Origin: Hyphomicrobium nitrativorans NL23
Lineage (GTDB): Bacteria > Pseudomonadota > Alphaproteobacteria > Rhizobiales > Hyphomicrobiaceae
Assembly (NCBI RefSeq): GCF_000503895.1
Contig: NC_022997.1
Location: 1,012,501-1,076,500, forward strand
Direction: 5' to 3'
DNA length: 64,000 nt
The notes under the pieces are model-generated. The model was given only the letters and a program-made list of their open reading frames with translations, was not told the DNA's origin and did not search any database. The position numbers and the translations under genes are program-made. Numbering within the stretch: position 1 is the first letter of the stretch; every line of letters begins with the position of its first letter. Below, piece by piece: positions 2,497 through 27,531 of the stretch.

Positions 2497-2514
2497 AGAC
2501 TCGGATACTACTCA
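2497..2514 (-). promoter_or_regulatory. Conserved 18-bp motif, copy 1
   Basis: The minus-strand sequence is TGAGTAGTATCCGAGTCT. It matches the nine-copy consensus TRRGTANNWTCCGASYCT and lies upstream of the exported protein gene ending at 2149. It overlaps the end of the neighbouring 90-residue-type gene. Confidence 0.55.
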
Positions 2515-2771
2515 GTTCCGATATCACGCTCTTGGGCCATGGCAAGATCGAGTGGATCGATAGCGACGACCTGTCTCTTGAGACTGACAGAGCCGATTGC
2601 GGGAAGCTCGATGGTGGTTTCCACTCGGCGAAAGGCCACGAAGGACAAACTTTCGATCAGCTCTTCCTCGGACTCGATCCTATAGCTGCCTGCGGGCAAC
2701 TCCCCGTCGATGCCACCGAGAGTAAAAGCGCTATTGAACACTGCAACCGATCGGGTGGTGCGCGTCGTCAT
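2508..2771 (-). CDS. Conserved small protein, intact copy of a duplicated pair
   Basis: The 87-residue soluble protein contains GGIDGELPAGSYRIESEEEL and a closing segment with SLKRQVVAIDPLDLAMAQ. I cannot assign a domain, but the fold looks beta-rich. The ATG at 2771 overlaps the stop of the upstream exported-protein gene by four bases (ATGA), which argues for translational coupling. A second copy at 19332-19695 is broken by a frameshift. Both copies lie at the distal end of the duplicated signalling block. Confidence 0.7.
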   Translation of the reverse strand: MTTRTTRSVAVFNSAFTLGGIDGELPAGSYRIESEEELIESLSFVAFRRVETTIELPAIGSVSLKRQVVAIDPLDLAMAQERDIGTE

Positions 2772-2974
2772 CGTTTCCACTTTTCCAAAGAGTGGCTGAG
2801 GATGGCGGCGTGGACAAACCGCACATCCGAGGTCGGCGCCACGTCAGTCACCGTGTTGGCGAAGACATCTCCGTTCCATGGGGGCATCTCTGGCTTGGGG
2901 GCCTGCTGCTGGCCGGAAACGGGTGAGGCCATGACCATCGCCACCAGCGTAAAGGGCAATATGGCTGATTTCAT
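2768..2974 (-). CDS. Small exported protein (68 aa)
   Basis: Translation from ATG 2974 gives MKSAILPFTLVAMVMASP, a clear signal peptide with a likely cleavage site after VSG. A mature region of about 45 residues follows, containing PWNGDVFANTVTD. The gene overlaps the next one by ATGA. It is present in block A only; no counterpart is seen at the equivalent place in block B (19696-19825). Function unknown. Confidence 0.65.
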   Translation of the reverse strand: MKSAILPFTLVAMVMASPVSGQQQAPKPEMPPWNGDVFANTVTDVAPTSDVRFVHAAILSHSLEKWKR

Positions 2975-3078
2975 ACCAGCAACTCCGTTTGCCGAACGAA
3001 CGAAGAGCGAGCCAGTGCACATGGTGCACTGGCTCGGCGCTGCGACTGGCCGTTTTGAGACGTCGGTCGCGCGCTGAT

Positions 3079-3258
3079 CTAGATCTTCTGCGGTGCGGGC
3101 GCCGCCGGCTTTTGCTCCGACTTGACGGCCGGATTGGCAACCGTTTCCGGCTCGCCGACGGTCGGCGGACTTCCGGCTGGCACCTTGGATGGCGCAGTCG
3201 GCGTATCAGGTGCCGCGGTAATCGGAGTGTCAGATGCCTTTGTGGCGTTGTCGATCAT
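3079..3258 (-). CDS. Pro/Ala-rich small protein, block A copy
   Basis: A 59-residue low-complexity protein beginning MIDNATKASDTPITAAPDTP and ending in KPAAPAPQKI. Its paralogue at 19826-20002 has the same plan, including a central VGxPExV motif and the terminal APAPxKI. That conservation across a decayed duplication indicates a real coding gene. It lacks a membrane span or signal peptide and is probably disordered. An alternative GTG start lies at 3267. Motif copy 2 lies 63 bp upstream of the ATG. Confidence 0.6.
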   Translation of the reverse strand: MIDNATKASDTPITAAPDTPTAPSKVPAGSPPTVGEPETVANPAVKSEQKPAAPAPQKI

Positions 3259-3320
3259 GAATGTCACCGGTTTGATGGTTTAGTTCATGCCGACAGTGCA
3301 CCTCTACCCGGACAAAGCTT

Positions 3321-3338
3321 AGACTCGGAATGTACCTA
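3321..3338 (-). promoter_or_regulatory. Conserved 18-bp motif, copy 2
   Basis: The minus-strand sequence is TAGGTACATTCCGAGTCT. It lies between the Pro/Ala-rich gene and the broken HWE kinase, pointing at the former. The corresponding position of block B carries copy 6. Confidence 0.6.
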
Positions 3339-4066
3339 TGGCGCGGCGGAAGCGCTGTCGTCCGCCTTTGAGGCCAGGACTGCGGCGGCTAGCACTTCGA
3401 GCGTCCAGACCACGCCGCTGGGGTAAAACTCGTGTTCCACAAGTCCGCCTAGCGTCACGCCGGTCATGCGCTGCAGGACGACTTGACCGAAGCCGCTATG
3501 CTGAGGCGCCTTTACCTCAGGACCGTTTCGCTCACGCCAGGTCAGGTGAAAGCATGCGGATCCCAGAGCACCCGGCCTGATCTGCCACGCGACTTCGATG
3601 GTGTCCTCCTGCACGGACAATGCCCCGTATTTCACGGCGTTAGTCGCGAGTTCATGCAGTGCGAGCCCAATGTTCTGAGTGGCGTTCTGGTTCAACATAA
3701 GACCCGGTCCTGTCGCGGAAATGCGCACACCGTCGATCTTGCCAAAAGGCTCAAGCTGACAGCATACCACGTCTGACACGGCGGCGCCGCACTTGCCATC
3801 CTCGACGAGAAGATCCAGGGAACGAGAAAGTCCGTTCAGTCGTTGACTGAATACGGTTTGGAACGATTTCGAGATCGTGGCTTACATATCCGGTTTGGCG
3901 TGCGATCGCCTGTACGACGGAGAGTATGTTTTTTGGTACGGTGGCGCAGCTCGTTTATGACAAGCTGCAGGCCTTCCTGCCTAACCAGGAGGCGGGCTAT
4001 TGTCTCGGTACGAGAGAACGTCCTTCGATGTCCGCCGGCGTTCTTGGTCGATTGAATTTTCAGCAT
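3336..4066 (-). pseudogene. HWE histidine kinase, block A copy, two frameshifts
   Basis: This is the paralogue of the intact kinase at 20232-20975. The N-terminus MLKIQSTKNAGG follows a strong AGGAGGAG ribosome binding site. The phosphoacceptor box NELRHRTK is then followed by a frameshift in a six-A run (five A would restore frame), and about 75 bases later by a second shift, after which LSRSLDLLVEDGKC resumes. The C-terminal ATPase part is in one frame: LHELATNAVKYGALS and the WRERNGP tryptophan motif. No full-length product can form unless the indels are sequencing errors. The ATG overlaps that of the divergent gene at 4065. Confidence 0.8.
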
Positions 4067-5390
4067 GGCCGCTCCTCCTAGTAAGGGGATCATTCGTATC
4101 GAGGTGCTCGACACGGGCATCGGCCTCCCCATGGATCAGGCCCGGAAGATATTCGAGGAGTTCCACCAGCTCGCAAATCCAGCTCGCGACAGCAGTTTGG
4201 GTCTTGGGCTCGGCCTTTCGATCGTCAAGCGGATAGGAGATCTGCTTGGGCATTCTATCGACGTCCGCTCGATCCCCGGCTACGGGTCGGCATTTGCGGT
4301 GGAGGTACAGATCGGCGACGCAGGCGAAGTCGACGAGACGCAGCCTATACGCGCAGCCCAGGAGAACTCGGCACCCGTTGCCGGCACATTCCTGATCATC
4401 GACGATGATCCAATCGTGCGGAATATGGTCAAGATGCTTCTCGATCAGGAGGGACATCGTACGATGGTCGCAGGCGATGTCGCTACAGCACTCGATATCG
4501 CCGGAACAAACGCTGCGGAACTGGATCTCGTAATCGCGGACTATAACCTGTCTTGCGGGGCGAGCGGCCTCGATGCCATTGCGAGCCTGCGGCAGCAGCT
4601 CGGCCGAGATATTCCCGCCATCGTCCTGACGGGTGACATCGCGACCATCACGTTGCGCGCTGTTGCGGACCAGGGGCACATTCAGCTCAACAAGCCGGTG
4701 AAATCGCAGCAACTCATAAGCCTGATCCAGCACCTTCTGGTCAAGGCGGGGAAAAACGCACCCGATACCGCGGTCGACGTGCCATCATCCGCGGATCCTT
4801 CCGCGATACAGAGGGTATTCGTTGTTGACGATGACGCCGTTGTCCTCGAGGCAATGCGGGATCTGCTCCAAGAGCATGGCTATGGAGTAAAAATCTATGC
4901 AAATGGCGAGGAGTTCCTGCGCGCCGAGCGATCCGATGGCTGTCTGCTGATCGACGCCCGATTGCCCGGCATGACCGGTCTCGAACTGATCGAGCGCCTC
5001 AGAGCGGAGAACTGTACACTGCCCACAGTCATGATAACTGGCGACGGAGACATTGCTTTAGCCGTCGAGGCGATGAAAGCGGGTGCCTCCGACTTTATTC
5101 AAAAGCCGGTCGGTCACGTGGAGCTGCTTGCGAGCATTGCGCGCGCGTTCGAGCTCGATGGAGGCAGACCCTCTGCTGCGCGAGAGCTGGCTCTCTCTCT
5201 TGTCGCGGGGCTGACGGCGCGCCAACGCCAGATCATGGACCTCGTCATGGCCGGACATCCGAGCAAGAACATTGCCGCCGACCTTGGAATCAGTCAGCGC
5301 ACCGTGGATAACCATCGGGCGGCTATTATGAGGAAGACCGGCTCCAAGTCGCTTCCGGCCTTGATCCGGATCGCGATCGCGGCGGCTTGA
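4065..5390 (+). CDS. Truncated hybrid kinase: HATPase fragment, two receiver domains, LuxR HTH
   Basis: The 441-residue frame matches the last third of the giant protein at 21242-25960. Residues 7-85 are the second half of a HATPase domain (VLDTGIGLPMDQARKIFEEF, GLGLGLSIVKR). Residues about 105-225 form a receiver domain (acceptor Asp in VIADYNLS). Residues 245-365 form a FixJ-like receiver (LIDARLPGMTG, MITGDGDIALAVEAMKAGA). The end is a LuxR-type HTH (LTARQRQIMDLVMAGHPSKN). CheB, CheR, PAS and the HisKA histidine are missing. No ribosome binding site precedes the ATG, so this is probably a deletion remnant. Confidence 0.8.
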   Translation: MAAPPSKGIIRIEVLDTGIGLPMDQARKIFEEFHQLANPARDSSLGLGLGLSIVKRIGDLLGHSIDVRSIPGYGSAFAVEVQIGDAGEVDETQPIRAAQENSAPVAGTFLIIDDDPIVRNMVKMLLDQEGHRTMVAGDVATALDIAGTNAAELDLVIADYNLSCGASGLDAIASLRQQLGRDIPAIVLTGDIATITLRAVADQGHIQLNKPVKSQQLISLIQHLLVKAGKNAPDTAVDVPSSADPSAIQRVFVVDDDAVVLEAMRDLLQEHGYGVKIYANGEEFLRAERSDGCLLIDARLPGMTGLELIERLRAENCTLPTVMITGDGDIALAVEAMKAGASDFIQKPVGHVELLASIARAFELDGGRPSAARELALSLVAGLTARQRQIMDLVMAGHPSKNIAADLGISQRTVDNHRAAIMRKTGSKSLPALIRIAIAAA

Positions 5391-5878: not shown

Positions 5879-6016
5879 CTAGCTGGCAGCTTGGAAGATG
5901 ACGTACGCGACGAGCACCAGTGCAAGCACGATTGGAACAAGCAAAGACGGGATCCATGGCGCAAGCGTCCGCCAACTTGTCTTCTCGGCAACTACGTAGG
6001 CAGCCGGGTCATTCAT
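5879..6016 (-). CDS. Single-span small membrane protein (45 aa), block A copy
   Basis: Translation from ATG 6016 (preceded by TAGGAGA) gives MNDPAAYVVAEKTSWRTLAP, then a hydrophobic span (LLVPIVLALVLVAYVIF) and a short tail. The plan matches the 43-residue protein at 26737-26868: short polar N-terminus, Trp, LLVPIV membrane span, YVI near the end. The 5' leader also shares a stretch (GATCTGAGCAT) with block B. Function unknown; probably an inner-membrane peptide. Confidence 0.65.
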   Translation of the reverse strand: MNDPAAYVVAEKTSWRTLAPWIPSLLVPIVLALVLVAYVIFQAAS

Positions 6017-6138: not shown

Positions 6139-6156
6139 AGAGTCGGAATCTACTCA
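6139..6156 (-). promoter_or_regulatory. Conserved 18-bp motif, copy 3
   Basis: The minus-strand sequence is TGAGTAGATTCCGACTCT. It lies about 123 bp before the start of the small membrane protein at 6016 and is identical to copy 8 at the same place in block B. From here to the cold-shock gene at 6432 I see no gene; one short hairpin (CTCAGC/GCTGAG, near 6325) is the only structure noticed. Confidence 0.65.
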
Positions 6157-6431
6157 GAACGTCGGGACAGAACATCGCCTGCTCACGAGCGGGAGCGTTG
6201 GCGTCGGGCGGCTGCAAAACCGCCGACCATCGGCACGATTGACGGTCGCAATGAGCCCTTGCAATTAAGCGATGCTGTTCTTATTTCCACTGATCGAGTT
6301 TGGCCGGAATGCGGGCCGCTGTGCTCAGCGCTGCTGAGCGTATGTTCATAGACCCCAAAAATTCGAGAAATAGAGCTGGCGTGCGCCTCGCGGCGCGCGT
6401 CGGTTCGTTAGCATCAATGATTGGAGTGATC

Positions 6432-6641
6432 ATGAACACGGGAACGGTCAAATTTTACAATGGACAAAAAGGCTACGGGTTCATCGCGCCGGACAATGGA
6501 GGAAGCGATGTCTTTGTGCACGCGAGTGCACTCGAACGTGCAGGGCTGACGAGCCTTTCGGAAGGACAGAAGGTCTCTTTCGACACCGAGCAGGATCGGC
6601 GTTCCGGTAAGACTGCCGTCGCGAATATTCAAGTAAGCTAG
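6432..6641 (+). CDS. Cold-shock protein, CspA family
   Basis: A 69-residue single cold-shock domain starting [20 protein letters not shown]. The two RNA-binding motifs KGYGFI and DVFVHASAL are intact. The start at 6432 is preceded by TTGGAGTG and matches the usual length. Proteins of this kind bind single-stranded RNA and DNA and act as RNA chaperones in the cytoplasm. A divergent-strand paralogue lies at 7277-7486; the two differ at many positions, so this is not a recent duplication. Confidence 0.93.
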
Positions 6642-7276: not shown

Positions 7277-7486
7277 TCAGTCGGTGCGAATGTTCGAGAC
7301 AGAAATTTTTCCGGACCGACGATCCTCCTGGATATTGAAGGTCACTTTTTGCCCTTCACTGAGGATGTGCGTACCGGCTCGCTCGAGGGCTGTCGCGTGG
7401 ATGAACACGTCCTTGCCGCCGTCATCTGGCTGGATGAAGCCAAAGCCTCTTTCAGAATTGTAGAACTTTACGGTTCCAAGTTGCAT
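7277..7486 (-). CDS. Cold-shock protein, CspA family
   Basis: A 69-residue cold-shock domain beginning MQLGTVKFYNSERGFGFIQP. RNP-like motifs GFGFI and DVFIHATAL are present, and an AGGAAC ribosome binding site precedes the ATG. The gene is on the strand opposite to the paralogue at 6432. Proposed role is single-strand nucleic acid binding under stress. Confidence 0.93.
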   Translation of the reverse strand: MQLGTVKFYNSERGFGFIQPDDGGKDVFIHATALERAGTHILSEGQKVTFNIQEDRRSGKISVSNIRTD

Positions 7487-8952: not shown

Positions 8953-9327
8953 CTAGATCGCGAGCCGATACTCGATATCGGTTAGGAGGTGCCTTAACTT
9001 AGCCGGGTCGTAGGGCTTTGCGAGTCTGTTGGCTCCCTCGGGAAGGAGACAGGATGCGAGGTCGACCTTGCCCGAAGCGACCACTATGATTGTTGGTGGC
9101 CAGCGTTCCCGGACGTACCGAGCGAGCTCAATCCCATCCATATTGCCAGGCATCTGCACATCCGTGAACACCACGCGGATTTCTGGATGCTCCTCCAGAA
9201 GCGCAATTGCCTCCATTGCCGAAGACGCCTCTAGGCAACGGTAACCAACATCTTCCAAGGTCTGAACAAGATCCATCCGCACGAGGGGCTCGTCTTCGAC
9301 GACCAGAACAACACGGCAGGTGTTCAT
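8953..9327 (-). CDS. Single-domain response regulator
   Basis: A stand-alone receiver domain of 124 residues starting MNTCRVVLVVEDEPLVRMDL. Acidic pocket residues E and D are in VVEDEP, the acceptor Asp is in VVFTDVQMPGNMDG, and the conserved Lys is in RLAKPYDP. There is no output domain, so it probably acts by phosphotransfer or protein binding. A GGGGAG site precedes ATG 9327, and an EcfG-like promoter lies just upstream. It diverges from the HWE kinase at 9479, a natural phosphorelay partner. Confidence 0.9.
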   Translation of the reverse strand: MNTCRVVLVVEDEPLVRMDLVQTLEDVGYRCLEASSAMEAIALLEEHPEIRVVFTDVQMPGNMDGIELARYVRERWPPTIIVVASGKVDLASCLLPEGANRLAKPYDPAKLRHLLTDIEYRLAI

Positions 9328-9352
9328 TGCTCCCCACAATCCATCGGGCAAC

Positions 9353-9377
9353 AACCTCTCCGGATGGTTAGGGTTCC
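9353..9377 (-). promoter_or_regulatory. EcfG-like general stress promoter
   Basis: On the minus strand GGAAC is followed by a 16-base spacer and GGTT. The alphaproteobacterial general-stress sigma factor EcfG recognises GGAAC-N16/17-CGTT, so this has one mismatch. It would place the transcript start shortly before the response regulator ATG at 9327, which also argues against the upstream start at 9354. Confidence 0.5.
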
Positions 9378-9478: not shown

Positions 9479-10651
9479 TTGGCCCTTAGGATTCCTCGCG
9501 CGATCTCTACAGCGGACGTGGACATCTCGGATCGGTTGGCGAGCAGACCAACGCCTCAACCGGATTATCAAGGTGAAAAACTCGCCATCCAGGACTTGAC
9601 CAGTCGGATGGCGAACCGGCCGGGAGAAGTCTTACCACGGCTCACAGCCCTGGCATTGGAGTTATGCGACGCAGATTCGGCCGGCGTCAGCGTTCTGACG
9701 CGTGACGAATTCAAGTGGCTTGCCCTGATTGGCAAGCTTTCTGTTTTTGAGGGCACGACGACGCCATTGAACAACAGTCCATGTGGCGTTTGCCTCGAAA
9801 AGCTAACTCCGACCCTCATGGAGCGTCCTGAGAGGGCCTATTCTTGGATTGCAGATGCCGGGATAAGCGTACCCGAGGTTTTGCTGCTTCCGCTCCTTGT
9901 TAACAACGGAGAACCGATCGGAACAGTTTGGGTCGTGGCAAGGGAAGGACATGCGTTCCACGCCGGCCATGCGCGATTGATGAAGGATCTGGCGGTCTTC
10001 ACGGGCATTGCGCTGCAAATGATTGAAGCGGAAGCGGCTTTGAAGGCAACCTTGAAAAAACATGAGTTATTTGCAAGCGAGATGAGCCACCGCGTGAAGA
10101 ACTTTTTTGCAGTCACGGAGAGCTTGGTTCGGATGACTGCCCGGCACAGCGAAACGAAGGAGGAAATGGTCGACAACCTTCTGCGTCGTGTCGTTGCTCT
10201 GTCGGATGCACACACTCTCGCTCAAGACCATCATGCCGAGAACGATCAAGAGCCCGTACCGTTGCGAACGGTTATTGAGACTGTGCTTCGACCTTATCGC
10301 GGCCCAGTTTTGACCGGGCCGCCAATTCTGCTAGCGGCGAGCGCCACGAGCAACCTCACTCTTGTATTGCACGAACTGGCCACCAATGCTGCCAAACATG
10401 GTGCGCTCAGTACATCGAACGGTAACGTACGAATAGAATGGCACGCCGACAGCAGTGGTTTGGAGATGACCTGGAAGGAAAATGGCGGGCCGACGGTCAA
10501 CGGGCCGCCCACCAGGATCGGATTTGGAACAAAGCTTATTCGAAACACCCTCGCCAGCGTCAATGGAGCAGTCGAGAAGCAGTGGGCAAGAGACGGGTTA
10601 CATGTCCGGATTTCTTTGCCGCGAGATGTCCTGATCGGATACCCAGGTTGA
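9479..10651 (+). CDS. GAF-domain HWE histidine kinase
   Basis: A 390-residue cytoplasmic kinase with no membrane span. A GAF sensor covers about residues 35-185 (ALELCDADSAGVSVL, NNSPCGVCLE). The HWE kinase core follows: phosphoacceptor His in SEMSHRVKNFFAV, ATP-binding LVLHELATNAAKHGALS and the WxE motif in MTWKENGGP. The TTG start is chosen because AAAGGAG lies eight bases upstream. HWE kinases include those that act through PhyR in the general stress response. The divergent single-domain regulator with an EcfG-like promoter fits such a role but does not prove it. Confidence 0.9.
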   Translation: MALRIPRAISTADVDISDRLASRPTPQPDYQGEKLAIQDLTSRMANRPGEVLPRLTALALELCDADSAGVSVLTRDEFKWLALIGKLSVFEGTTTPLNNSPCGVCLEKLTPTLMERPERAYSWIADAGISVPEVLLLPLLVNNGEPIGTVWVVAREGHAFHAGHARLMKDLAVFTGIALQMIEAEAALKATLKKHELFASEMSHRVKNFFAVTESLVRMTARHSETKEEMVDNLLRRVVALSDAHTLAQDHHAENDQEPVPLRTVIETVLRPYRGPVLTGPPILLAASATSNLTLVLHELATNAAKHGALSTSNGNVRIEWHADSSGLEMTWKENGGPTVNGPPTRIGFGTKLIRNTLASVNGAVEKQWARDGLHVRISLPRDVLIGYPG

Positions 10652-10720
10652 GCAGCTTCGCAAGAATTTGAACCCGAGTCCGGTCGGGATATTCGCTCCT
10701 CGACTCGTGTGGGCGCATGC

Positions 10721-10751
10721 TGGTCTGTCTCTCGAACAAGGAGACAGACCA
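10721..10751 (+). repeat. Perfect hairpin over a recombinase ribosome binding site (copy 1)
   Basis: TGGTCTGTCTC and GAGACAGACCA form an 11-bp perfect inverted repeat with a nine-base loop. The right arm contains the GGAG of the ribosome binding site and ends on the A of the ATG at 10751. The same structure, with one G-U pair, occurs at 29604-29634. Confidence 0.75.
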
Positions 10752-11060
10752 TGGACAACGATCACGAAACTAAGAATCTGAAGCCTGTCCACAACGAGCC
10801 TTGGAACAAGGGAAAGCTTATCGGGGCGAAGCCGCCACTGCGGCCGAGCCACGTCTGGTCGATTAGAACCAAGCTCCAGATGGCAGAAGTTCGGAGCGCA
10901 CTCGTTGCGACGTACGAAGGCGGTGTTTATCTACCGGCGCACGGGTAATCTTCGCGGGGTCCAGCTCTTGCTTGGGCATTCGAAAATCGAGAGCACCGTT
11001 CGCTACCTCGAGATCGAGGTCGACGACACGATCCAGATCGCAGAGAAGATCGATATCTGA
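10751..11060 (+). pseudogene. Tyrosine recombinase with internal deletion
   Basis: The first 44 codons (MDNDHETKNLKPVHNEPWNK...) are nearly identical to the intact recombinase at 29634-30269. At about 10884 the sequence jumps roughly 330 bp ahead to the segment before the HSLRR box, out of frame. The 3' part, ending in EKIDI, is then nearly identical again. The catalytic Arg and Lys are lost. The roughly 220 bases to the IS630 element hold nothing recognisable. Confidence 0.85.
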
Positions 11061-11276: not shown

Positions 11277-12326
11277 CTAGTGTCTTTCAGGTTTAGGTGG
11301 AAGCATAACTGGCGTTTCGGATGTAGCTGGCGCATTCGTCCTGCGAGATGGCTGTGACGAGGCTGGCGATGTTGTCGTGGATGGCTTCGATGGCGCGGGC
11401 CTGCGCCATGCGCATCCAGTGTTTGACCTTGGCGAAGACCTGCTCGATCGGGTTGAGATCCGGCGAGTAGGGCGGCAGGAACGCGAGCTTGGCGCCCGCG
11501 GCGCGGATCGCCGCGCGGACAGCCTGGGAGCGATGGCTGCCCAGATTGTCAAGGATCACGACGTCACCTGGCTTGAGTGTGGGGAGCAGGAACTGCTCGA
11601 TATAGGCGCGGAAGATGCCCCCATTGATCGGCCTGTCGATGACGCAGGGCGCCGTCAGGGCCTCGGTCCTGAGCGCGGCCAGGAACGTGAGCGTGCGCCA
11701 GCGCCCATCGGGTGCGAAGCCGAGAAGGCGCTCTCCCTTCCGTCCCCAGCCGCGGATCGGCGCCATATTGGTCTTGATCCAGGTTTCGTCGATGAAGACC
11801 AGGCGCGCCGCATCCAGGTGACGGCTCGCGCGCAGCCATCGGCCGCGTCTCCTCACGACATCGGGACGCAGTTGCTCAGATGCGAAGAGCGTTTTTTTTG
11901 AACGAGCAGCCCTCGCGTTTGAGGAAGCGCCAGACGGTATCGTGCGAGACCACGACCCCCGCGTTCTGCCAGGAGATCCTTCAGGCGATGCAGCGTCAGA
12001 TGCGGCACCTCCTCGATCTGCGCCAGAACGAAGGCGCGATGTGGCACGAGGCTCGAGGTCTTATGGCCGCCGAACTTGGCGGGCGTGGGACTGCCCGTCT
12101 CGCGGATCCGCTTGGACCACTTCACGACCGTTGAAGGCGCGACATTGAAGCGCTCGGCGATCGAACGGCAACTCTCGCCACCGGCGAGGGCAGCGGCGAT
12201 GCGCAGACGCAGATCATCGGAATAAGGCTTCGCCATGCATGCTGGCCTCCCGCCCAGCATGCATCTTGAATCACAGCACGCCTGATTTGGGAATCCTCCG
12301 ATTCCGCCTAATGCTGAAAGGCTCTA
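11277..12326 (-). mobile_element. IS630-family insertion sequence
   Basis: The element is bounded by imperfect terminal inverted repeats of about 27 bp: CTAGTGTCTTTCAGGTTTAG at the left and, inverted, CTAGAGCCTTTCAGCATTAG at the right. Both ends begin with CTAG, consistent with the TA target of IS630. It encodes one transposase region (11293-12236). The insertion separates the recombinase remnant from the KefB-like gene. Confidence 0.85.
11293..12236 (-). pseudogene. IS630 transposase, two one-base frameshifts
   Basis: The N-terminal part (MAKPYSDDLRLRIAAALAGG) carries the helix-turn-helix FNVAPSTVVKWSKR. The C-terminal part carries the DDE catalytic centre: LVFIDETWIKT, VVILDNLGSH and YSPDLNPIEQVF. 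Between them the frame breaks twice: in a run of five G (four would restore SHDTVWRFLKREG) and in a run of eight A (seven would give FKKTLFASEQ). Restoring both gives a transposase of about 315 residues, a normal size. Both breaks are in homopolymers, so sequencing error is possible. Confidence 0.85.
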
Positions 12327-14203: not shown

Positions 14204-14347
14204 TGGCTCTCCGGGCGACAGCGCAGCAGTTTTGCGAACAGGCAGTTGTCGTCGATTACAGATTAGGCGTGCGTCGAGGCGTTGACGTCGAATACTCATC
14301 GCAATTAAGTCGCACTCAACCTATCACTGGCGAATGACGTGGACCGA

Positions 14348-16646: not shown

Positions 16647-17720
16647 CTAGATGGCGGCAAGCGCTCCGACCCGCTGCGGCAGGCTCGCATCGCTGGTGAG
16701 AGCCAATTGACGCGTGTAGGCCGAGACGTAGGCGTTGGTCATCTTCTCGACAGTGAACCGCTGCTCGAACGCCTGCCTTACGAGGGCGCGATCGAGTGTC
16801 AGGCTCTTTTCCACGGCTGCGACACCTTCGTCGATCGAAGAGACCATGAAACCGGAAACGCCTTCGGTAATAATCTCCGGAACCGACCCGGCCCGCCATG
16901 CGATGACGGGTGTCCCAACCGACATCGCCTCGATCATCACCAGTCCGAACGGCTCAGGCCAGTCGATCGGGAACAGTAGCGCGCGAGCGTTTCCGAGAAA
17001 CGCACCTTTCTGCTGATCGTCGATCTCACCGATGAACTCGATCAACGGGTGGTCGAGCATCGGCCTGATGACCTGCTCGAAATAGTCGGTGTCGGCCGGA
17101 TCGACTTTGGCGGCGATCTTCAAGGGAATTCCTGTGCGCTTGGCGATCTCTATGGCGCGATCTGGTCGCTTGTCCCGGCAGATGCGACCCAGGAATGCGA
17201 GATAGTCGCCGCCGTGTGGATTGAACCGGCACAGAGATTCCGGGAGACCGTGCGGAATGGTGTCCACCCAATTGATGAAAGCCGGCATAGGAAGCCGCTG
17301 ATGGTTCGAGATCGAAACCAGCGGCATCCTGGGGAAGGCTTTGTAGATCGGCATGTTGTCCGGGAGGTCGAGCCGCCCGTGCATCGTCGTGATGGTCTTG
17401 TGACGGATGCGATTAAAAAGAGGGTGTTGAAGGAGGTCGACATGAAAATGGATGATGTCGAAATCCGCCGACGCTCTCATCACCTTGGAAAGCATTACGA
17501 GATGCGTTGCCAAGTGATCGCGAACTCCCGCCAACCGCAGCCCGCGCGGACAGCAGGGGACGAGCGTTGCAGATGTTTCAGAGTCGCCCGAGGCGAAGAG
17601 CGTTACCTCGTGGCCCTGACGAACCAGCTCCTCGGTCAGCCACGAGACGACTCGCTCTGTGCCGCCGTAGAATTTCGGCGGCACGGATTCGGCAAGTGGT
17701 GCGACTTGCGCAATTCGCAT
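16647..17720 (-). CDS. Family 4 (GT-B) glycosyltransferase
   Basis: From ATG 17720 the product begins MRIAQVAPLAESVPPKFYGG, the usual GT4 N-terminus. It contains GTERVVSWLTEELVRQGHEV, and the C-terminal nucleotide-sugar site AIEIAKRTGIPLKIAAKVDP, then PEPFGLVMIEAMSVGTPVIA with the EX7E-type glutamates. It is about 357 residues long. The upstream ATG at 17771 would add an unlikely extension; starting at 17720 puts regulatory motif 4 at 135 bp, like most other copies. Sugar donor and acceptor are unknown. The debranching enzyme follows about 110 bases downstream. Confidence 0.88.
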   Translation of the reverse strand: MRIAQVAPLAESVPPKFYGGTERVVSWLTEELVRQGHEVTLFASGDSETSATLVPCCPRGLRLAGVRDHLATHLVMLSKVMRASADFDIIHFHVDLLQHPLFNRIRHKTITTMHGRLDLPDNMPIYKAFPRMPLVSISNHQRLPMPAFINWVDTIPHGLPESLCRFNPHGGDYLAFLGRICRDKRPDRAIEIAKRTGIPLKIAAKVDPADTDYFEQVIRPMLDHPLIEFIGEIDDQQKGAFLGNARALLFPIDWPEPFGLVMIEAMSVGTPVIAWRAGSVPEIITEGVSGFMVSSIDEGVAAVEKSLTLDRALVRQAFEQRFTVEKMTNAYVSAYTRQLALTSDASLPQRVGALAAI

Positions 17721-17854
17721 CTTGGTGCGACCTTTCGGTAATTCACATAAGGACGTTCTTAGTGAAGACATTATAGAAATCCGAAACTTGCAGCTCCGTC
17801 GCTGCCGCCCGAAAAAGCGGTTCCCAACCCTATTGCAACGGGAAACGAGACATC

Positions 17855-17872
17855 AGGCTCGGAAAGTACTCA
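17855..17872 (-). promoter_or_regulatory. Conserved 18-bp motif, copy 4
   Basis: The minus-strand sequence is TGAGTACTTTCCGAGCCT, 135 bp before the glycosyltransferase ATG. It lies in the divergent region between that gene and the orphan pqqA. This copy is outside the duplicated blocks, so its conservation is not explained by block duplication. Confidence 0.65.
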
Positions 17873-18644: not shown

Positions 18645-18974
18645 TCACCCGCTGCGGCAATCGTGATAGCGCGAGCGCCAATACCGGCTGCCGGTTGCCT
18701 GCCACTTGCGGTACTCATAGGAGCAGCCCCGAGCCCCTTCACCGAAGATGATCACGCTACGCAGAGCGCGCCCGACCGAACGGTCATGATTGCGGCCGCG
18801 ATAGCTTTTACCGCGATGATCGGCGTGCTTCTTTCCGACTCGATCCCCACCGCCATAGTGCTTTTGCACACCGCTGCGCTGGCTGTCCTTGGCTTCCGCC
18901 GTGCTGACCATCCCCGTGATAGCGAGGATCGCCGCGGCGCCCGTGATCAATATCGTTTTCGTGATCGCTGTCAT
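18645..18974 (-). CDS. Small exported basic protein (109 aa)
   Basis: A signal peptide (ILITGAAAILAITGMVSTAEA) is followed by a His/Lys/Gly-rich middle. The C-terminus is CSYEYRKWQATGSRYWRSRY with two Cys. This ending is found in small secreted proteins of Hyphomicrobiales; function is unknown. Regulatory motif 5 lies 127 bp upstream, and a terminator follows the gene. Confidence 0.65.
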   Translation of the reverse strand: MTAITKTILITGAAAILAITGMVSTAEAKDSQRSGVQKHYGGGDRVGKKHADHRGKSYRGRNHDRSVGRALRSVIIFGEGARGCSYEYRKWQATGSRYWRSRYHDCRSG

Positions 18975-19100: not shown

Positions 19101-19118
19101 AGACTCGGAAAGTACCCA
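19101..19118 (-). promoter_or_regulatory. Conserved 18-bp motif, copy 5
   Basis: The minus-strand sequence is TGGGTACTTTCCGAGTCT, 127 bp before the exported protein ATG at 18974. Confidence 0.65.
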
Positions 19119-19825: not shown

Positions 19826-20002
19826 TCAGATCTTCACCGGGGCCGGCGCAACGCGCGGCTTCTCGGAAAGAATACGGGTGTTGACGACTTCCGGGTCTCC
19901 GACAGGAAGGGGGCGCTCATCACTCGGCTCCGTCCGAGGCGGCGGTGCGACGGGCTGCGCGGTTGCGATTGCATCGGAGGCCGTCTTGGGTGTGTCGGTC
20001 AT
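19826..20002 (-). CDS. Pro/Ala-rich small protein, block B copy
   Basis: A 58-residue frame begins MTDTPKTASDAIATAQPVAP, has the central VGDPEVV and ends RVAPAPVKI. It matches the protein at 3079-3258 in plan and at conserved spots, though most of the sequence has diverged. It lies between the broken small gene and the HWE kinase, as in block A. Motif 6 lies about 130 bp upstream. Likely disordered; function unknown. Confidence 0.6.
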   Translation of the reverse strand: MTDTPKTASDAIATAQPVAPPPRTEPSDERPLPVGDPEVVNTRILSEKPRVAPAPVKI

Positions 20003-20131: not shown

Positions 20132-20149
20132 AGAGTCGGAATCTACCTA
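20132..20149 (-). promoter_or_regulatory. Conserved 18-bp motif, copy 6
   Basis: The minus-strand sequence is TAGGTAGATTCCGACTCT, about 130 bp before the Pro/Ala-rich protein ATG and at the position equivalent to copy 2 in block A. Confidence 0.65.
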
Positions 20150-20231: not shown

Positions 20232-20975
20232 CTATCGGTCTCTCGCGCCAGAAACGGTCTTTGATTTCACCATGAGGATGGCCGCTGTGGGAACCTCGAG
20301 CGTCCACCTCACGCCGCCGCCGTCGAAGTCATGCCGCGCGTTTCCGCCTAGTGTCGCGGCCGCGATGCGTTGCAGGATCATGGAGCCGAAACCTTGATGT
20401 TCCGGAGGCGTGACCGCAGGACCGCTCTGCTCGCACCAGATCAAGCGAAAACGTTCAGGCCCGGAGCCACCCGGAACAAGCTCCCAGTGCACGGAGATCG
20501 TACCTTCCGGCACGGAGAGCGCCCCATACTTCGTGGCGTTGGTCGCCAGCTCGTTCAGTGCCAGCCCGAGAGTCTGCGTCGCCTCCCGGTTCAAGAGCGC
20601 GTCGGGACCCGCCATGACGATGCACGGTCCATCGATCTCGGCAAAGGGCTCAAGCTGTCTTTGCACCAACTCCGCGACGCTAACGCCTCGCTCACCCTCA
20701 TGAATGAGAAGATCCAGGGAACGAGAGAGCGCGCCGATGCGTTGAGAGAACTCGGAGCGGAACGCGTTGAGGTCGCTGCTGCGTTGTGCTGTCTGAGTGG
20801 CAATAGCCTGCACGACGGCGAGCAAATTCTTTGTCCGATGGCCCAGCTCGTTCACGACAAGCCGCAGGCGCTTCTCCCGCGTCAGATAGCGGCTGATCCT
20901 GTCTATTCGGGAGAACGTCGTGCGGTCCTTGCTTTGGGGCTCCCTATCGGGGACTACGGGCTGTATCTGCGGCAT
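20232..20975 (-). CDS. HWE-family histidine kinase, block B copy
   Basis: From ATG 20975 the product is 247 residues with no membrane span and no recognisable sensor domain. The His box is NELGHRTKNLLAVVQAIATQ, the ATP-binding N box is LALNELATNATKYGALS, and the WxE motif is LIWCEQSGPAV. The start is set by alignment with block A and by GGGAG upstream; an upstream ATG at 21041 is possible. It diverges from the giant hybrid kinase at 21242, suggesting the two act in one pathway. Motif 7 lies 125 bp upstream. Confidence 0.88.
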   Translation of the reverse strand: MPQIQPVVPDREPQSKDRTTFSRIDRISRYLTREKRLRLVVNELGHRTKNLLAVVQAIATQTAQRSSDLNAFRSEFSQRIGALSRSLDLLIHEGERGVSVAELVQRQLEPFAEIDGPCIVMAGPDALLNREATQTLGLALNELATNATKYGALSVPEGTISVHWELVPGGSGPERFRLIWCEQSGPAVTPPEHQGFGSMILQRIAAATLGGNARHDFDGGGVRWTLEVPTAAILMVKSKTVSGARDR

Positions 20976-21099
20976 GCCAACATACTCCCACACGGAAAAA
21001 CGCCGACTGGTTCTGGGCGGAGTTAGTGTTATGCGATCCATTAACCCGCTTCTCGCCTTGACTGGACGGAACCCTAGCTGTCGGCAGCAATGCGCCGGA

Positions 21100-21117
21100 A
21101 GGCTCGGATTTTACCTA
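21100..21117 (-). promoter_or_regulatory. Conserved 18-bp motif, copy 7
   Basis: The minus-strand sequence is TAGGTAAAATCCGAGCCT, 125 bp before the HWE kinase ATG. It lies in the 266-bp divergent region shared with the giant hybrid kinase. Confidence 0.6.
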
Positions 21118-21241: not shown

Positions 21242-24200
21242 ATGGCTGGACTTCGTCCAGGCGCACCGGATGCTGCGCAGGAGCCCCGCGAACAGCGCGA
21301 GCCGAAAAGCACCGACCCTTGCCGGTCGCTGCCCTTCGCCGTTGTTGGCCTTGGCGCATCGGCGGGCGGCCTCGACGCCTTCCAGCGATTCTTGGATGCC
21401 GTTTCTCCAGACAGCGGCATGGCGTTCGTGCTGATCCAGCATCTGGACCCGACCCACGTCAGCATGATGAGCGAATTGCTGGCGCGCCACACGAAAATGC
21501 CTGTCGTGGAAGCCGCCAATGGCATGCCGGTTGAAGTCGATCACGTGTATCTCATTCCACCGGGCGCCTATCTAGCCTTGCGTAATGGATCGCTGTGGTT
21601 GTCGAAGCCGCATGACCGTCACGGCGCCCGGATGCCGCTCGATTTCTTCCTGTGTTCAATCGCACACGAGTGCGGCGAGCGCGCGCTCTGTGCGATCCTG
21701 TCCGGAACCGGCACCGACGGAAGTCTCGGCCTGAAAGCCGTGCACGAGCAGGGCGGGCTCGTTGTCGTTCAGGATCCCCACGAGGCCCAGCACGACGGGA
21801 TGCCCCGCAGCGCCATCGACACGGGGTGCACCGATTTCATTCTTCCGATCGCAAAAGTTCCCCAGGCGCTGATAAGCTTTAGCCGCCAAGCGTATGTCAG
21901 CGGCCGCAAGGCTCCTGGCGATGAAATGGAATCCGAGAGCGGGCCGACCGAGATCATCGCTCTTCTGACCGAGATGACTTCCCACGACTTCTCTCTTTAC
22001 AAGCCAGGAACGCTGACCCGGCGCATTGAGCGGCGTATGGCGCTGGCGGCGATCGAGAATCGGGAGCGTTACCTAGAAATTCTGCGCGAGGATATCGGAG
22101 AGCGCGAGCGTCTGGCCAGGGATCTCCTGATCAATGTCACGCAATTCTTCCGAGATCGACTTGCTTTCGACATGCTCGGCCAGTCGGTCGTGCCGGAGCT
22201 GGTTCAAGAGCAGCCGCCGGGCCAGGCCATCCGCGTCTGGGTGCCGGCCTGCAGCTCCGGGGAGGAAGCCTACTCGATCGCTATCCTGTTTCTCGAGGCC
22301 ATCGCGGCCAGCAGGAGCAACATCAAGCTGCAAGTCTTCGCCTCCGACATCGAGCCCGGCTGCGTGGCCTTCGCCCGCAACGGGTCCTATCCGGAGCATA
22401 TCCACAACGATGTGACGCCGGAACGGCTCTCCCGTTATTTTATCAAGGAAGACGGCGGCTATCGTGTCGTGCGCGAGTTGCGGGAGGCCGTGGTGTTCAC
22501 GACCCAAAACCTGCTGGCCGATCCGCCCTTCTCGCGCCTCGACCTCATCTCGTGCCGCAACGTGCTGATCTATCTTTCTCCTGAGGCCCAGGAGCGGACG
22601 CTTTCGCTTTTCCATTTCGCGCTTCGCGAGCGCGGCGTTCTGGTCTTGGGCGCCTCGGAAACCGTCGGCAAACATGTCGACCATTTCGCGCCGATCAGCA
22701 AAACGCATCGTCTCTACCGCCACATCGGCCGCAGCCGCCCGGGTGAGACTGCGTTCCCGATCCCCAGCGGAGAGCTTGGATTTCGCTCGCGGTCCCTATC
22801 GCCCAAAGAGCGGGCCAATCCGGCTCCCACTCTGGGAGATCTGGCCAAGCGCACCCTGATGGACGCTTATGTGCCGGCAGCGGTTCTCATCAACGACAAG
22901 CGTGAGGCGCTGCACTATTTCGGCGCGATCGATATCTTCCTCAAGATCGCCCCCGGCGAAGCAAGCCGGGACATTCTCGTCATGGCTCGCGAGGGACTGC
23001 GCGGCAAGCTTCGCCACGCGCTTCAACATACGCCGTCGGATCGGGGCAACAGCTTCGTGACGGGCGGACGAGTAACCCATGATGGTCGTCCTATGGACGT
23101 CACGATCGGCGTCTTTGAGATCTCCAGCGATGGACAGAAATACCGCATCGTGAGCTTCGCCGAGGACGCCGGGAGTTCCGCTGCGGCGCAAGGAGGGGAA
23201 ACGGAGCCACGTCCAAACATCAATCAGGAGCAGGAGATCGCCCTGCTCCGCGAAGAGCTTAACAGCACAATTCTCGAGCTCGAGGTTGCCAACGAGGAGC
23301 ACAAGGCGATCAACGAAGAGGCCATGTCGGTCAACGAGGAGTTCCAGTCGATCAATGAGGAGCTCGAGACCTCGAAGGAGGAACTGCAGTCCCTGAACGA
23401 GGAACTCAACGCGCTGAACAGCCAGCTTCAGGAGACGGTGGAACGGCAGCGGGCGACCGCGGACGATCTCAACAACATCCTCAACAGCTCCGACGTCGCT
23501 ACGTTGTTCCTCGACCGGGCGCTGAGAATCCGCTTTTTCACGCCGGCGACCAAAACGCTCTTCAATATTATTACGACCGACATCGGCCGGCCACTCGGAG
23601 ATCTCACGCATCGATTCCGGGACGACGACATGCTGCGCGATGCCACTTCGGTTCTCAAGACGTCGGCTCCGAAGCGGCGCGAGATCGAGGCCGACGACGG
23701 CTCCTGGTACATTCGCAGCATCCTGCCGTATCGCAGCGACGCCTCGCATGTCGACGGCGTGGTCGTGACATTTACCGGCATTTCCGAAATCAAGGCCGCC
23801 CAGGCCGAGATCCAGTCCGCACGGTCTTACTCGGACAGCATCATCGCAACCATCGGGCAGCCGCTTGTCGTGCTGGATGCCGACCTCCGTGTGATCTCCG
23901 CCTCGACGTCCTTCTATCGCGTCTTCGCCGTGGGGCCCGCGGAAACCGTCGGCCGTCCTTTGCACGAGGTCGGCTCCTGCCTCGATGTGCCGGCGCTGCG
24001 TCAGTTTCTTGCCACACTTCGCAAGGGAGATGCGGGGCTGGACGATGCCGAGATCACTATTACTCTGCCGGCGCTTGGAATCCGCTCGTTCAAGGTGAGC
24101 GCCCGCACTATCGGCGATGAGCCGGCGGCCAGACGAAAGATCCTGTTGTCGATCATCGACGTCACTGACACGAAGCGCGAGAGCGAGGCGTTGGCGGCCG

Positions 24201-25960
24201 CCAAGGCGGCGGCGGAACGCGCCAATATCGGCAAGTCCCGTTTCCTAGCGGCCGCCAGTCACGATCTGCGCCAACCTCTGCAGACCATTAATCTGCTGCA
24301 AGGCATCCTGATGAAACGCGCCACAGACGAAGGCACGCGTAAGCTGCTGGGGCGCCTCGATGACACCACGGGCGCCATGTCGACCATGCTCGACAAGCTG
24401 CTCGACATCAACCAGCTCGAAGCCGGGATCGTGCGTCCCGAGATCGTTGATTTCCCCATCAACAGCCTACTCAGCCGCATGAAGGCCGACTTCTCGTTTC
24501 TCGCCGCTGAAAAGAGCCTGCGGTGGAGCGTCATCCCATGCAGTCTCTTCGGAAGAAGCGACCCGCGTCTCCTCGATCAAATGATCCGCAATCTGGTCTC
24601 TAACGCCTTCAAGTACACGAGCAGCGGGAAACTGCTGCTTGGATGCCGGCGGCGGCCTGGAATCATCCGCATCGAGGTGCTCGACACCGGCATCGGCCTT
24701 CCCATGGACCAGGCCCGGAAGATTTTCGAGGAGTTTCATCAGCTCGACAATCCGGCCCGCGACAGCAGCCTGGGCCTTGGGCTGGGTCTCTCCATCGTCA
24801 AACGGCTGGGTGATCTGCTCGGGCACTCGATCGACGTCCGCTCGATTCCCGGCTATGGATCGGCCTTCGCCATTGAGATCCCGCTCGCAGCCTCCGGCGG
24901 GACACGCGAAGCGCGCTCGGTCGAGCCTGCTCGGGACAATCATTCGCCCGTGTACGGCGCGGTCCTGGTGATTGAAGACGATCCATCCGTACGGGAGATG
25001 CTCAAGCTGCTGCTCGATCAGGAAGGGTATCGCACGACAGCTGCCGCCGACGTCGCGACGGCGCTTGAGCTCGCCGGGAAAGCTACGACGCGACCGGACC
25101 TAATAGTTGCCGACTACAACCTGGCCCGTGGCGTCAGCGGCCTCGATGCCATCGCGAGCCTGCGTCAGCGGCTCCAACGCGATATCCCGGCCATCGTTGT
25201 CACGGGCGACATTTCAGCAGGCACGCTCCGCGCCATTGCTGACCATGGGTACACGCAGCTCAACAAGCCAGTGAAGGCACCCCAGCTCGTCCGTCTTATC
25301 CAGGATCTCCTACAGCCATCGCCGACCGAGAGAACGGTCTCGTTGCCGCAAAACCCCCAAGGATCGAATGCGCCAACCGTCTATGTGGTGGACGACGACG
25401 CCGCTCTTCGCGAGGCGTCGCGCGACCTTCTCCAGGCGCATGGCTATGCCGTGGAGGCCTTTGCCGATGGGGAGGAGTTCTTGCGATGCGGCGGCGCTAA
25501 AGGCTGCCTGCTTCTCGATGCCCGGTTGCCGGGTATGACCGGCCTTGAGCTGATCGAGCGCTTGAAGACCGCGGGCCGTTCCCTGGCCACCATCATGATC
25601 ACGGGCGATGGCGACGTTCCGCTCGCCGTCGAGGCCATGAAGGCGGGTGCCGTGGATTTCATCGAGAAGCCGATCGGCCACGTGGAACTGCTGGCCAGCA
25701 TCGAGCGCGCGCTTGACGGGAACAGCGACGAGATCGAATCGACCGTCGTACGGAGCAAGGCCGTCTCCCTTGTTGCTAGCCTGACCGCGCGTCAGCGCCA
25801 GATCCTGGAGCTAGTCATGGCAGGCCACCCGAGCAAGAACATTGCCGCAGATCTCGGCATCAGCCAGCGCACGGTGGACAACCACCGCGCGGCCATCATG
25901 AAGAAGACCGGGTCGAAATCAATGCCGGCGTTGATCCGGATTGCAATTGCCGCCGGGTAA
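21242..25960 (+). CDS. Giant CheB-CheR-PAS-histidine kinase-REC-REC-LuxR protein
   Basis: A 1572-residue soluble protein. Order: CheB-type methylesterase (about 30-205; GLGASAGGLDAF, GTGTDGSLG); CheR-type methyltransferase (about 240-500; WVPACSSGEEAYSIAI); a long coiled coil (660-740; SVNEEFQSINEELETSKEEL); two PAS domains (745-975); HisKA (His near 1007 in SHDLRQP); HATPase (VLDTGIGLPMDQ); receiver 1 (Asp near 1289 in VADYNL); a FixJ-like receiver 2 (Asp near 1423, LLDARLPGMTG); and a LuxR-type HTH (ARQRQILELVMAGHPSKNIA). CheB-CheR-PAS kinases are common, but the added FixJ-type output makes sensing, phosphorelay and DNA binding one polypeptide. Start supported by GAAGGCG. Confidence 0.93.
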   Translation: MAGLRPGAPDAAQEPREQREPKSTDPCRSLPFAVVGLGASAGGLDAFQRFLDAVSPDSGMAFVLIQHLDPTHVSMMSELLARHTKMPVVEAANGMPVEVDHVYLIPPGAYLALRNGSLWLSKPHDRHGARMPLDFFLCSIAHECGERALCAILSGTGTDGSLGLKAVHEQGGLVVVQDPHEAQHDGMPRSAIDTGCTDFILPIAKVPQALISFSRQAYVSGRKAPGDEMESESGPTEIIALLTEMTSHDFSLYKPGTLTRRIERRMALAAIENRERYLEILREDIGERERLARDLLINVTQFFRDRLAFDMLGQSVVPELVQEQPPGQAIRVWVPACSSGEEAYSIAILFLEAIAASRSNIKLQVFASDIEPGCVAFARNGSYPEHIHNDVTPERLSRYFIKEDGGYRVVRELREAVVFTTQNLLADPPFSRLDLISCRNVLIYLSPEAQERTLSLFHFALRERGVLVLGASETVGKHVDHFAPISKTHRLYRHIGRSRPGETAFPIPSGELGFRSRSLSPKERANPAPTLGDLAKRTLMDAYVPAAVLINDKREALHYFGAIDIFLKIAPGEASRDILVMAREGLRGKLRHALQHTPSDRGNSFVTGGRVTHDGRPMDVTIGVFEISSDGQKYRIVSFAEDAGSSAAAQGGETEPRPNINQEQEIALLREELNSTILELEVANEEHKAINEEAMSVNEEFQSINEELETSKEELQSLNEELNALNSQLQETVERQRATADDLNNILNSSDVATLFLDRALRIRFFTPATKTLFNIITTDIGRPLGDLTHRFRDDDMLRDATSVLKTSAPKRREIEADDGSWYIRSILPYRSDASHVDGVVVTFTGISEIKAAQAEIQSARSYSDSIIATIGQPLVVLDADLRVISASTSFYRVFAVGPAETVGRPLHEVGSCLDVPALRQFLATLRKGDAGLDDAEITITLPALGIRSFKVSARTIGDEPAARRKILLSIIDVTDTKRESEALAAAKAAAERANIGKSRFLAAASHDLRQPLQTINLLQGILMKRATDEGTRKLLGRLDDTTGAMSTMLDKLLDINQLEAGIVRPEIVDFPINSLLSRMKADFSFLAAEKSLRWSVIPCSLFGRSDPRLLDQMIRNLVSNAFKYTSSGKLLLGCRRRPGIIRIEVLDTGIGLPMDQARKIFEEFHQLDNPARDSSLGLGLGLSIVKRLGDLLGHSIDVRSIPGYGSAFAIEIPLAASGGTREARSVEPARDNHSPVYGAVLVIEDDPSVREMLKLLLDQEGYRTTAAADVATALELAGKATTRPDLIVADYNLARGVSGLDAIASLRQRLQRDIPAIVVTGDISAGTLRAIADHGYTQLNKPVKAPQLVRLIQDLLQPSPTERTVSLPQNPQGSNAPTVYVVDDDAALREASRDLLQAHGYAVEAFADGEEFLRCGGAKGCLLLDARLPGMTGLELIERLKTAGRSLATIMITGDGDVPLAVEAMKAGAVDFIEKPIGHVELLASIERALDGNSDEIESTVVRSKAVSLVASLTARQRQILELVMAGHPSKNIAADLGISQRTVDNHRAAIMKKTGSKSMPALIRIAIAAG

Positions 25961-25973
25961 AATGCGTGATGGC

Positions 25974-26236: not shown

Positions 26237-26281
26237 TGGCGGATTCTCCTTCCGGCGATGAGGTACCCGCCGGGGTTTTCT

Positions 26282-26689: not shown

Positions 26690-26736
26690 ACGCTCTCCGA
26701 TGCTCTCTTGAGAAATTTATGCGTGAGCGCGCAGCG

Positions 26737-26868
26737 CTAGTTGGCAACCTCGACAATCACGTATCCGCTGAACACAGCTGCCATAACGATGGGCACGAGG
26801 AGCAACCAAGAAGAAATTGAGGCCCAGCTCCCGGGAACTGCTACGAGTCTGTCGTTTGGATCGACCAT
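26737..26868 (-). CDS. Single-span small membrane protein (43 aa), block B copy
   Basis: From ATG 26868 (preceded by GAGGACATGAC) the product reads MVDPNDRLVAVPGSWASISS, then the span WLLLVPIVMAAVFSGYVIV. It matches the 45-residue peptide at 5879-6016 in plan and in the LLVPIV core. Motif 8 lies 114 bp upstream. Function unknown. Confidence 0.65.
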   Translation of the reverse strand: MVDPNDRLVAVPGSWASISSWLLLVPIVMAAVFSGYVIVEVAN

Positions 26869-26982
26869 GTCATGTCCTCGCTGCCATCAATGCGGGCGTC
26901 TAAAGGAGACATGCGCGCATGGATGCTCAGATCCGGACCCGCATATCATGAAGGACCGTAGAGAAAGACGTATGGACAGCGT

Positions 26983-27000
26983 AGAGTCGGAATCTACTCA
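26983..27000 (-). promoter_or_regulatory. Conserved 18-bp motif, copy 8
   Basis: The minus-strand sequence is TGAGTAGATTCCGACTCT, identical to copy 3. The leader between it and the gene shares GATCTGAGCATCCATGCGC-like sequence with block A. Confidence 0.65.
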
Positions 27001-27066
27001 GAGACGCGGGAGGCGGGCTGACCTTTAAAGGTCCGGTGCTCCCCCCTCGAGGGCCATTGCGAGCGT

Positions 27067-27306
27067 TTACGTCTTGAGCGGCGCGTCCACTGCCGCCCGC
27101 AAAATGCGTGGCCCTTGCACACTGAACCATCCGTTCGCAATGCCAAACTCGACGCCGCTGTTCAAAGCCTCGCCATAGACGTCTTCATTCGCAAGGCGCG
27201 CTGCAATCGCGCCGAACATGTCGTGCTCGCCTGGCTTGGTGTGCCGTTGATCAAGCAGGTCGAGGATCCGACGCGCTATCTGTTCCGGTGTCGACGTCAT
27301 GTGCAC
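27067..27306 (-). CDS. Hypothetical protein (79 aa)
   Basis: The GTG at 27306 follows AAGGAG by five bases; an in-frame ATG lies at 27300. The product contains TPEQIARRILDLLDQRHTKP and ends GPRILRAAVDAPLKT. It is soluble and mostly helical, with no family recognised. It is transcribed away from the EF-hand protein gene at 27655. Confidence 0.5.
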   Translation of the reverse strand: MHMTSTPEQIARRILDLLDQRHTKPGEHDMFGAIAARLANEDVYGEALNSGVEFGIANGWFSVQGPRILRAAVDAPLKT

Positions 27307-27513
27307 ATCGTCTCCTTACGAGATATTGAGAGACAGCTAGCTCTCGACGGAGACGAGAAAATCGCCGTCTAGGAAGTCGCCGTCTCGGGATGCCTCTGAT
27401 GTTTTGCCACTTGCGGTAAATAGGGGGAATTCTAGCGCGCTCAATGGAGAGGATTGAAATTTGCCCATCGCGCTGTTCACCTATTGGTTTGAACTCGGCA
27501 GTGCAACTCAGCT

Positions 27514-27531
27514 TGAGTAGTTTCCGATCCT
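27514..27531 (+). promoter_or_regulatory. Conserved 18-bp motif, copy 9 (plus strand)
   Basis: TGAGTAGTTTCCGATCCT on the plus strand lies 124 bp before the EF-hand protein ATG at 27655. It is the only copy facing right, and it faces the only plus-strand gene associated with the motif. It differs from the consensus at one position. The rest of 27307-27654 holds no gene I can support. Confidence 0.6.

Follow-up and report, generated by a model that had tools for sequence, protein, structure and literature searches.

An 18-bp motif in Hyphomicrobium nitrativorans as a putative operator of FixJ-like hybrid kinases

In the stretch of Hyphomicrobium nitrativorans NL23 DNA analyzed here (64,000 nucleotides, referred to as the window), an 18-bp motif recurs before a series of mostly small genes, and an initial annotation proposed that it may define an undescribed regulon. 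This raises the questions of which protein would act at the motif, how its copies are placed relative to promoters, and whether motif and regulator belong together in other genomes as well.

Motif copies in the window and in the genome

All nine annotated copies were confirmed in position and strand. Eight match the annotated consensus exactly, and the copy at 27514 has one mismatch; dinucleotide shuffles of the window gave 0.31 matches on average and three at most when up to two mismatches were allowed. On the minus strand, putative operator copy 1 (2497-2514) lies before a small exported protein (2149-2421), copy 2 (3321-3338) before a 59-aa protein (3079-3258), copy 3 (6139-6156) before a 45-aa membrane protein (5879-6016), copy 4 (17855-17872) before a GT4 gene (16647-17771), copy 5 (19101-19118) before an exported 109-aa protein (18645-18974), copy 6 (20132-20149) before a 58-aa protein (19826-20002), copy 7 (21100-21117) between a divergently oriented HWE kinase and hybrid regulator, and copy 8 (26983-27000) before a 43-aa membrane protein (26737-26868). 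Copy 9 (27514-27531), on the plus strand, precedes an exported EF-hand-like protein (27655-28104). Each copy thus faces an open frame downstream (9/9), as had been claimed, and the distance of 114-135 bp to the start codon given for seven of them is closely reproduced, with a plausible start 114-134 bp past the motif end in 7/9 cases. For copies 17855 and 21100, nearer in-frame ATGs are also present, at 83 and 58 bp, respectively. The start lies 62 bp past the motif end for copy 3321 and about 75-81 bp past it, apparently as a non-ATG codon, for copy 2497. The exported protein 2149-2421 (minus strand) behind this copy seems to use a non-ATG start because the in-frame ATG at 2484 would precede the predicted transcript start.

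The initial annotation had also proposed to look for the motif genome-wide. A scan of the single 3.65-Mb contig with the pattern TRRGTANNWTCCGANYCT gave ten exact matches, nine of which fall in the window cluster, so that exact matches are concentrated rather than scattered. With up to two mismatches, 25 matches were found compared with 22 for the reversed-pattern control, and the remainder looks like noise: a TANNNT hexamer at +39 to +41 from the motif start accompanies 0/16 of the off-cluster matches and 6/9 of those in the window. A regulon reaching past the cluster in this genome is therefore unsupported, as the off-cluster matches are at the level of the control and have no such hexamer.

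A FixJ-like regulator and its association with the motif

The best candidate for a protein that binds the motif is the 1572-aa hybrid regulator encoded at 21242-25960 (plus strand), in which Pfam recognizes CheB, CheR, PAS_10, PAS_4, HisKA and HATPase_c domains, two receivers and a GerE/LuxR-type helix-turn-helix (HTH). FixJ is the nearest solved relative of its output part, which consists of a receiver and the HTH and can be assigned to the FixJ family: the last 193 residues (receiver-HTH part, 25379-25957) have FixJ (5xso) as top PDB match (E 4.3e-42), followed by the response regulator 1yio (E 1.6e-39), and the best PDB match of the HTH alone is again FixJ (1x3u, E 6.2e-15). A second output module of 441 aa is encoded at 4065-5390 (plus strand). 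It comprises a partial ATPase, two receivers and a GerE HTH and is 73% identical to the hybrid regulator in the receiver-HTH part; its relatives in genomes G007 and G004 have frames of 900 and 924 codons. The genome thus contains two such output domains, either of which is a candidate actor at each site. In some other relatives, the HTH sits on short proteins with a truncated receiver and the motif close by (locus L083, 7141-7716), and at two further loci (L084, 10710-11618; L073, 9399-10244) the same HTH follows a receiver that, by eye, departs from the usual acidic residues, again with the motif near.

As in FixL/FixJ, a histidine kinase would feed a regulator with receiver and LuxR-type HTH, whereas here kinase and regulator are joined in one protein that also contains CheB and CheR, a pair of PAS domains and one additional receiver. 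No sign of an oxygen or nitrogen-fixation function was seen in this system; fixK and nifA are absent from the nine window targets, and no such regulator is among the 25 most frequent Pfam families (of 75) to which predicted targets elsewhere belong.

The motif itself resembles FixJ operators. SELEX yielded the FixJ sites GTAGTTTCCC and GTAMGTAG, and the site in the fixK promoter of Sinorhizobium meliloti is TAAGTAATTTCCCTTA (PMC4999443). With the FixJ sites given in the available part of that report, the motif has the core GTA-N-N-W-TCC in common, present here as GTA...TTTCC, and its first 12 positions accept TAAGTAATTTCC (PMC4999443). Its majority consensus, which contains GTAGTTTCCG, agrees with GTAGTTTCCC in nine of ten letters. 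The 3' half differs, reading GANYCT in the motif and CTTA in fixK, and the full fixK site as given there is not matched. In 80 related loci (described below), GTA...TCCG is enriched (330 occurrences compared with 181 for the reversed pattern), and GTA...TCCC, with the C of FixJ's own site, is not (42 compared with 67). Covariation indicative of a dyad was not detected within the motif (positions 2/15, p 0.87; 1/15, p 0.11). On this comparison with the published sites, the motif is very probably a FixJ-type operator with an altered 3' half.

We then compared the occurrence of motif and regulator across genomes. In a sample of 100 relatives, the own genome included, the exact motif was present in 15 genomes with 49 matches, and the control matched in one genome. 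An output domain scoring above 170 bits, a cut picked after the relatives' list had been seen, was found in ten genomes; nine of these contain the motif, compared with 6 of the 90 others (p 2.5e-8). Five relatives (G012, G016, G033, G059 and G090) contain the motif, and no HTH match at E <= 1e-9 was found in them. For a sample of 385 genomes drawn from Alphaproteobacteria, the regulator cut was fixed beforehand (E <= 1e-50). Here, the motif occurs in 25 genomes, the regulator in 20 and both in 15, so that 15/20 regulator genomes contain the motif compared with 10/365 others (p 1.3e-16; 1.5e-15 without the own genome); the exact motif is absent from 5/20 regulator genomes. The ten regulator-free motif genomes hold 11 matches, which may be chance occurrences, since the control has a similar frequency (10 matches in 10/385 genomes). 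In the other 14 genomes with both, a match lies within 30 kb of the regulator in at least 11, and among the 36 of 48 matches listed, 15 are on the regulator contig, many contigs being short. Of 20 named genomes picked by hand, 18 contain the motif, with 90 matches in all and none for the control; the motif had already been seen in the locus of 17 of them, and this count is hence not independent. The matches are often packed together, for example in Bradyrhizobium sp. dw_411, where a stretch of about 45 kb holds 10/10, and in Rhodopila globiformis, with 9/10 on one contig. Carriers include Rhodopila globiformis DSM 161, Methylocella silvestris TVC and Rhizomicrobium electricum DSM 21034.

The same association is seen from the side of the regulator. 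An alignment of 13 output-domain rows was used to fetch 487 relatives, and the loci of the best 80 (1.32 Mb) were searched for the motif. The motif was ignored in their choice, but all query rows save one (12/13) come from genomes known to hold it, so the loci lean to the motif-linked kind of regulator, and a few (e.g. L098, L100, L101, L132) come from genomes already seen. These best 80 of 487 contain 132 exact motifs in 62 loci, and the reversed pattern is absent. When up to two mismatches were allowed and a -10-like hexamer demanded, 165 sites in 65 loci stood against no reversed ones, and with three mismatches 169 against one. Such density at loci fetched by output domain is in line with the original suggestion that the LuxR-type output domain may bind the motif. 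Eighteen of the 80 loci have no exact motif and 15 have no site at up to three mismatches with a -10, among them some loci of 20 kb and that of Caballeronia arationis. A regulator frame was recognized in 77/80 loci, and the sites are arranged around it in a characteristic way. Near the 5' end of long frames (between 700 bp upstream and 100 bp downstream of the start), 25/25 sites point away from the regulator; near the 3' end, 23/24 point onward; and only 4/121 lie inside the stop-to-stop frame, all in its first 740 bp, though this frame makes up 23% of the DNA. From these samples, the regulator-site pair very probably recurs in many Alphaproteobacteria.

Other FixJ-like regulators (39-48% identical) were considered as binders and set aside, as no motif was found in 17 short loci of this kind (59.5 kb in all), compared with eight motifs in 13 loci of the close-kind regulator (46.5 kb). 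It is also conceivable that a different DNA-binding protein of the islands is the real binder and that the hybrid kinase merely accompanies it. Linkage by itself is unable to name the binder, and five motif genomes among the relatives have no close regulator; against this, both the site core and the output domain of the regulator are FixJ-like, and regulator frames near the motif range from 192 to 1671 codons while their HTH is nearly constant, which makes a different binder improbable.

Promoter anatomy

Downstream of each window copy lies a hexamer that resembles a -10 element, beginning at +40 or +41 from the motif start. It has the form TANNNT in 6/9 copies (TAAGGT, TATCGT, TAGGGT, TAGTGT, TAGGGT and TACGGT for copies 1, 3, 4, 5, 7 and 8), CANNNT in those at 3321 (CACTGT) and 20132 (CACTAT), and reads TATTTC at 27514; the distance from the motif is 22 bp, or 23 bp for copy 7. 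An alignment of 48 sites from the window and stretches of relatives revealed no strong conservation in the flanks save for this hexamer at about +40 to +45, with TANNNT beginning at +40 or +41 in 27/48 sites (background 0.15 per offset, maximum 1). Among 190 sites from all loci collected by then, partly from common genomes and with identical sites counted once, TANNNT is found at +39 to +41 in 124. The gap from the motif end to the -10-like TANNNT is thus fixed at 22-23 bp, and the random distances that would have spoken against the regulon proposed in the initial annotation were not observed. If the T of TANNNT is set at -12, the motif would span about -52 to -35 with its center at about -43 to -44, a predicted position that is that of an activator site overlapping the -35 region and not that of a -35 element; transcription would begin about 34 bp past the motif.

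The constant distance from the -10-like hexamer would also be expected of a motif that is itself recognized by an alternative sigma factor as part of the promoter. However, the spacing between -35 and -10 elements is about 17 bp, which the 22-23 bp observed here exceed, at 18 bp the motif would make a long -35 element, and motif density tracks one kind of FixJ-like regulator. EcfG promoters carry GGAAC at -35; direct reading of the motif found no GGAAC, and its spacing is unlike that of a -35. Neither does the motif fit the sigma-54 consensus TGGCACG-N4-TTGCW (as given in the available part of PMC4999443). We consider a sigma-factor element highly improbable and reject it on the grounds of spacing. 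The annotated statement that the motif matches no known EcfG, sigma-54 or sigma-32 site accordingly holds for EcfG and sigma-54; the motif is not unlike everything known, since its first 12 positions fit the published FixJ sites considered here. The spacing agrees instead with an activator site: FixJ protection of -69 to -44 and -57 to -31 has been reported (PMC4999443, same part), and the latter footprint, at fixK, approximates the span predicted for the motif.

Target genes and the proposed regulon

The window targets named in the initial annotation, small exported or membrane proteins, an HWE kinase and a GT4 enzyme, were borne out by inspection of the targets and by Pfam. The HWE histidine kinase behind copy 7 (20232-21041, minus strand) matches HWE_HK with E 2.2e-22, and the GT4-type glycosyltransferase behind copy 4 (16647-17771, minus strand) is recognized by Pfam as well. 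Judging from gene spacing, the latter gene probably heads an operon with a glycogen-debranching-like gene (14348-16537) and a member of a Na/H exchanger family (12833-14299). The label EF-hand for the target of copy 9 (27655-28104, plus strand) stands in part: a DKDGDNHLSGAEW loop is visible by eye, and Pfam gave no match at E <= 0.001.

The window contains two related modules (repeats D1-D4), and similar genes stand behind copies 2 and 6 and behind copies 3 and 8. Although this fits the idea that the copies are alike merely through gene duplication and have no function, copies 4, 5 and 9 precede unrelated genes, in agreement with the repeat map of the window and with the annotated view that they are outside the duplicated genes, and across many genera the motif is found ahead of genes for dissimilar proteins, with flanks unconserved save for the -10, so that duplication alone is contradicted by the cross-genome data and is almost certainly not the explanation.

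Between the two regulator modules lie a cold-shock protein (6300-6641, plus strand; Pfam CSD), a second one alike by eye (7277-7486, minus strand), a stand-alone receiver (8953-9354, minus strand) and a GAF-HWE kinase (9479-10651, plus strand). Adjoining the short regulator copy 4065-5390 is a decayed-looking relative of the HWE kinase 20232-21041, which by eye seems broken into two frames (3836-4132 and 3336-3779; 3336-4132 in all, minus strand) and in which Pfam recognizes only HATPase_c_2 (3339-3779). A 176-bp repeat occurs at 10712-10887 and 29595-29770 with 97% identity. The latter copy sits within a tyrosine integrase gene (29448-30269), and the former is remnant-like and near transposase frames (DDE_3 and HTH, 11293-12260). 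Repeat, integrase and transposase frames hint at a mobile island. On the 450-kb plasmid p_2 of Phyllobacterium sp. 628 (L126), the regulator occurs together with three exact putative operators, which is in line with horizontal transfer.

For the related loci, 136 of 187 predicted targets were analyzed with Pfam. The automatic choice of target frames was rough, being clearly wrong for window copies 2 and 8 and giving eight window entries, with none for copy 1. Of 150 available targets, 14 were removed manually, namely the two misassigned window frames, four frames that were short or cut at an end, and eight entries, including an HWE kinase, that came from close relatives or twin loci. Among the 25 commonest of 75 families are receivers (11), CsbD (6), OmpA (6), DUF3309 (5), LTXXQ (5), ferritin/Dps (4), PRC-barrel (4), MCRA (3), HWE kinase (3), SPFH (2) and Ysc84 (2), and single cases include BON, KaiC, LpxR and Nramp. 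The recurring families mostly have stress and envelope functions, and many targets belong to no recurring family. Much as here, the general stress response that EcfG/PhyR governs in Alphaproteobacteria includes CsbD, Dps and envelope proteins among its targets, with HWE kinases for partners. The two differ in that the present genes have a FixJ-type putative activator site and not an EcfG promoter, and in that EcfG/PhyR sites are spread over the genome, whereas the sites described here are packed around the regulator.

Taken together, the motif very likely serves as operator for FixJ-like output domains, those of the hybrid kinase 21242-25960 and of the shorter copy 4065-5390, which would activate the neighboring genes. 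The suggestion of an undescribed regulon gains support from the clustering of the copies, their fixed spacing and the motif density at output-domain loci, and the regulon is very probably real. In the open literature searched, whose coverage leaves most subscription papers outside, we found no description of this regulator-operator system. We infer that a signal reaches the N-terminal CheB/CheR/PAS part, upon which the kinase would autophosphorylate, phosphate would move to the receivers, and the LuxR-type HTH would dimerize on the motif. This would recruit a sigma-70-type RNA polymerase to a promoter with a recognizable -10 and little -35, since the putative operator covers about -52 to -35, in a class II activation like that of fixK by FixJ. 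The regulated genes would be those standing around the regulator, in which stress and envelope families recur, and the stand-alone receivers and HWE kinases among them may feed back on the system.

A broader reading, for and against which we see the chances as evenly balanced, is that these loci are self-contained stress-regulon cassettes of Alphaproteobacteria. Each would combine a giant hybrid kinase of FixJ-like output with an operator of its own and with nearby genes for stress and envelope functions whose set can change. The whole would move and be duplicated as one island and form a second stress response beside EcfG, in which stand-alone receivers and HWE kinases provide feedback. Very large hybrid kinases of the CheB-CheR-PAS type are widespread, and no description of them was found in the open literature searched; the findings tie this class to a putative operator and target set, which makes its function directly testable. 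With operator plus -10 as a search pattern, numerous small genes whose function is unknown would be placed in a single regulon.
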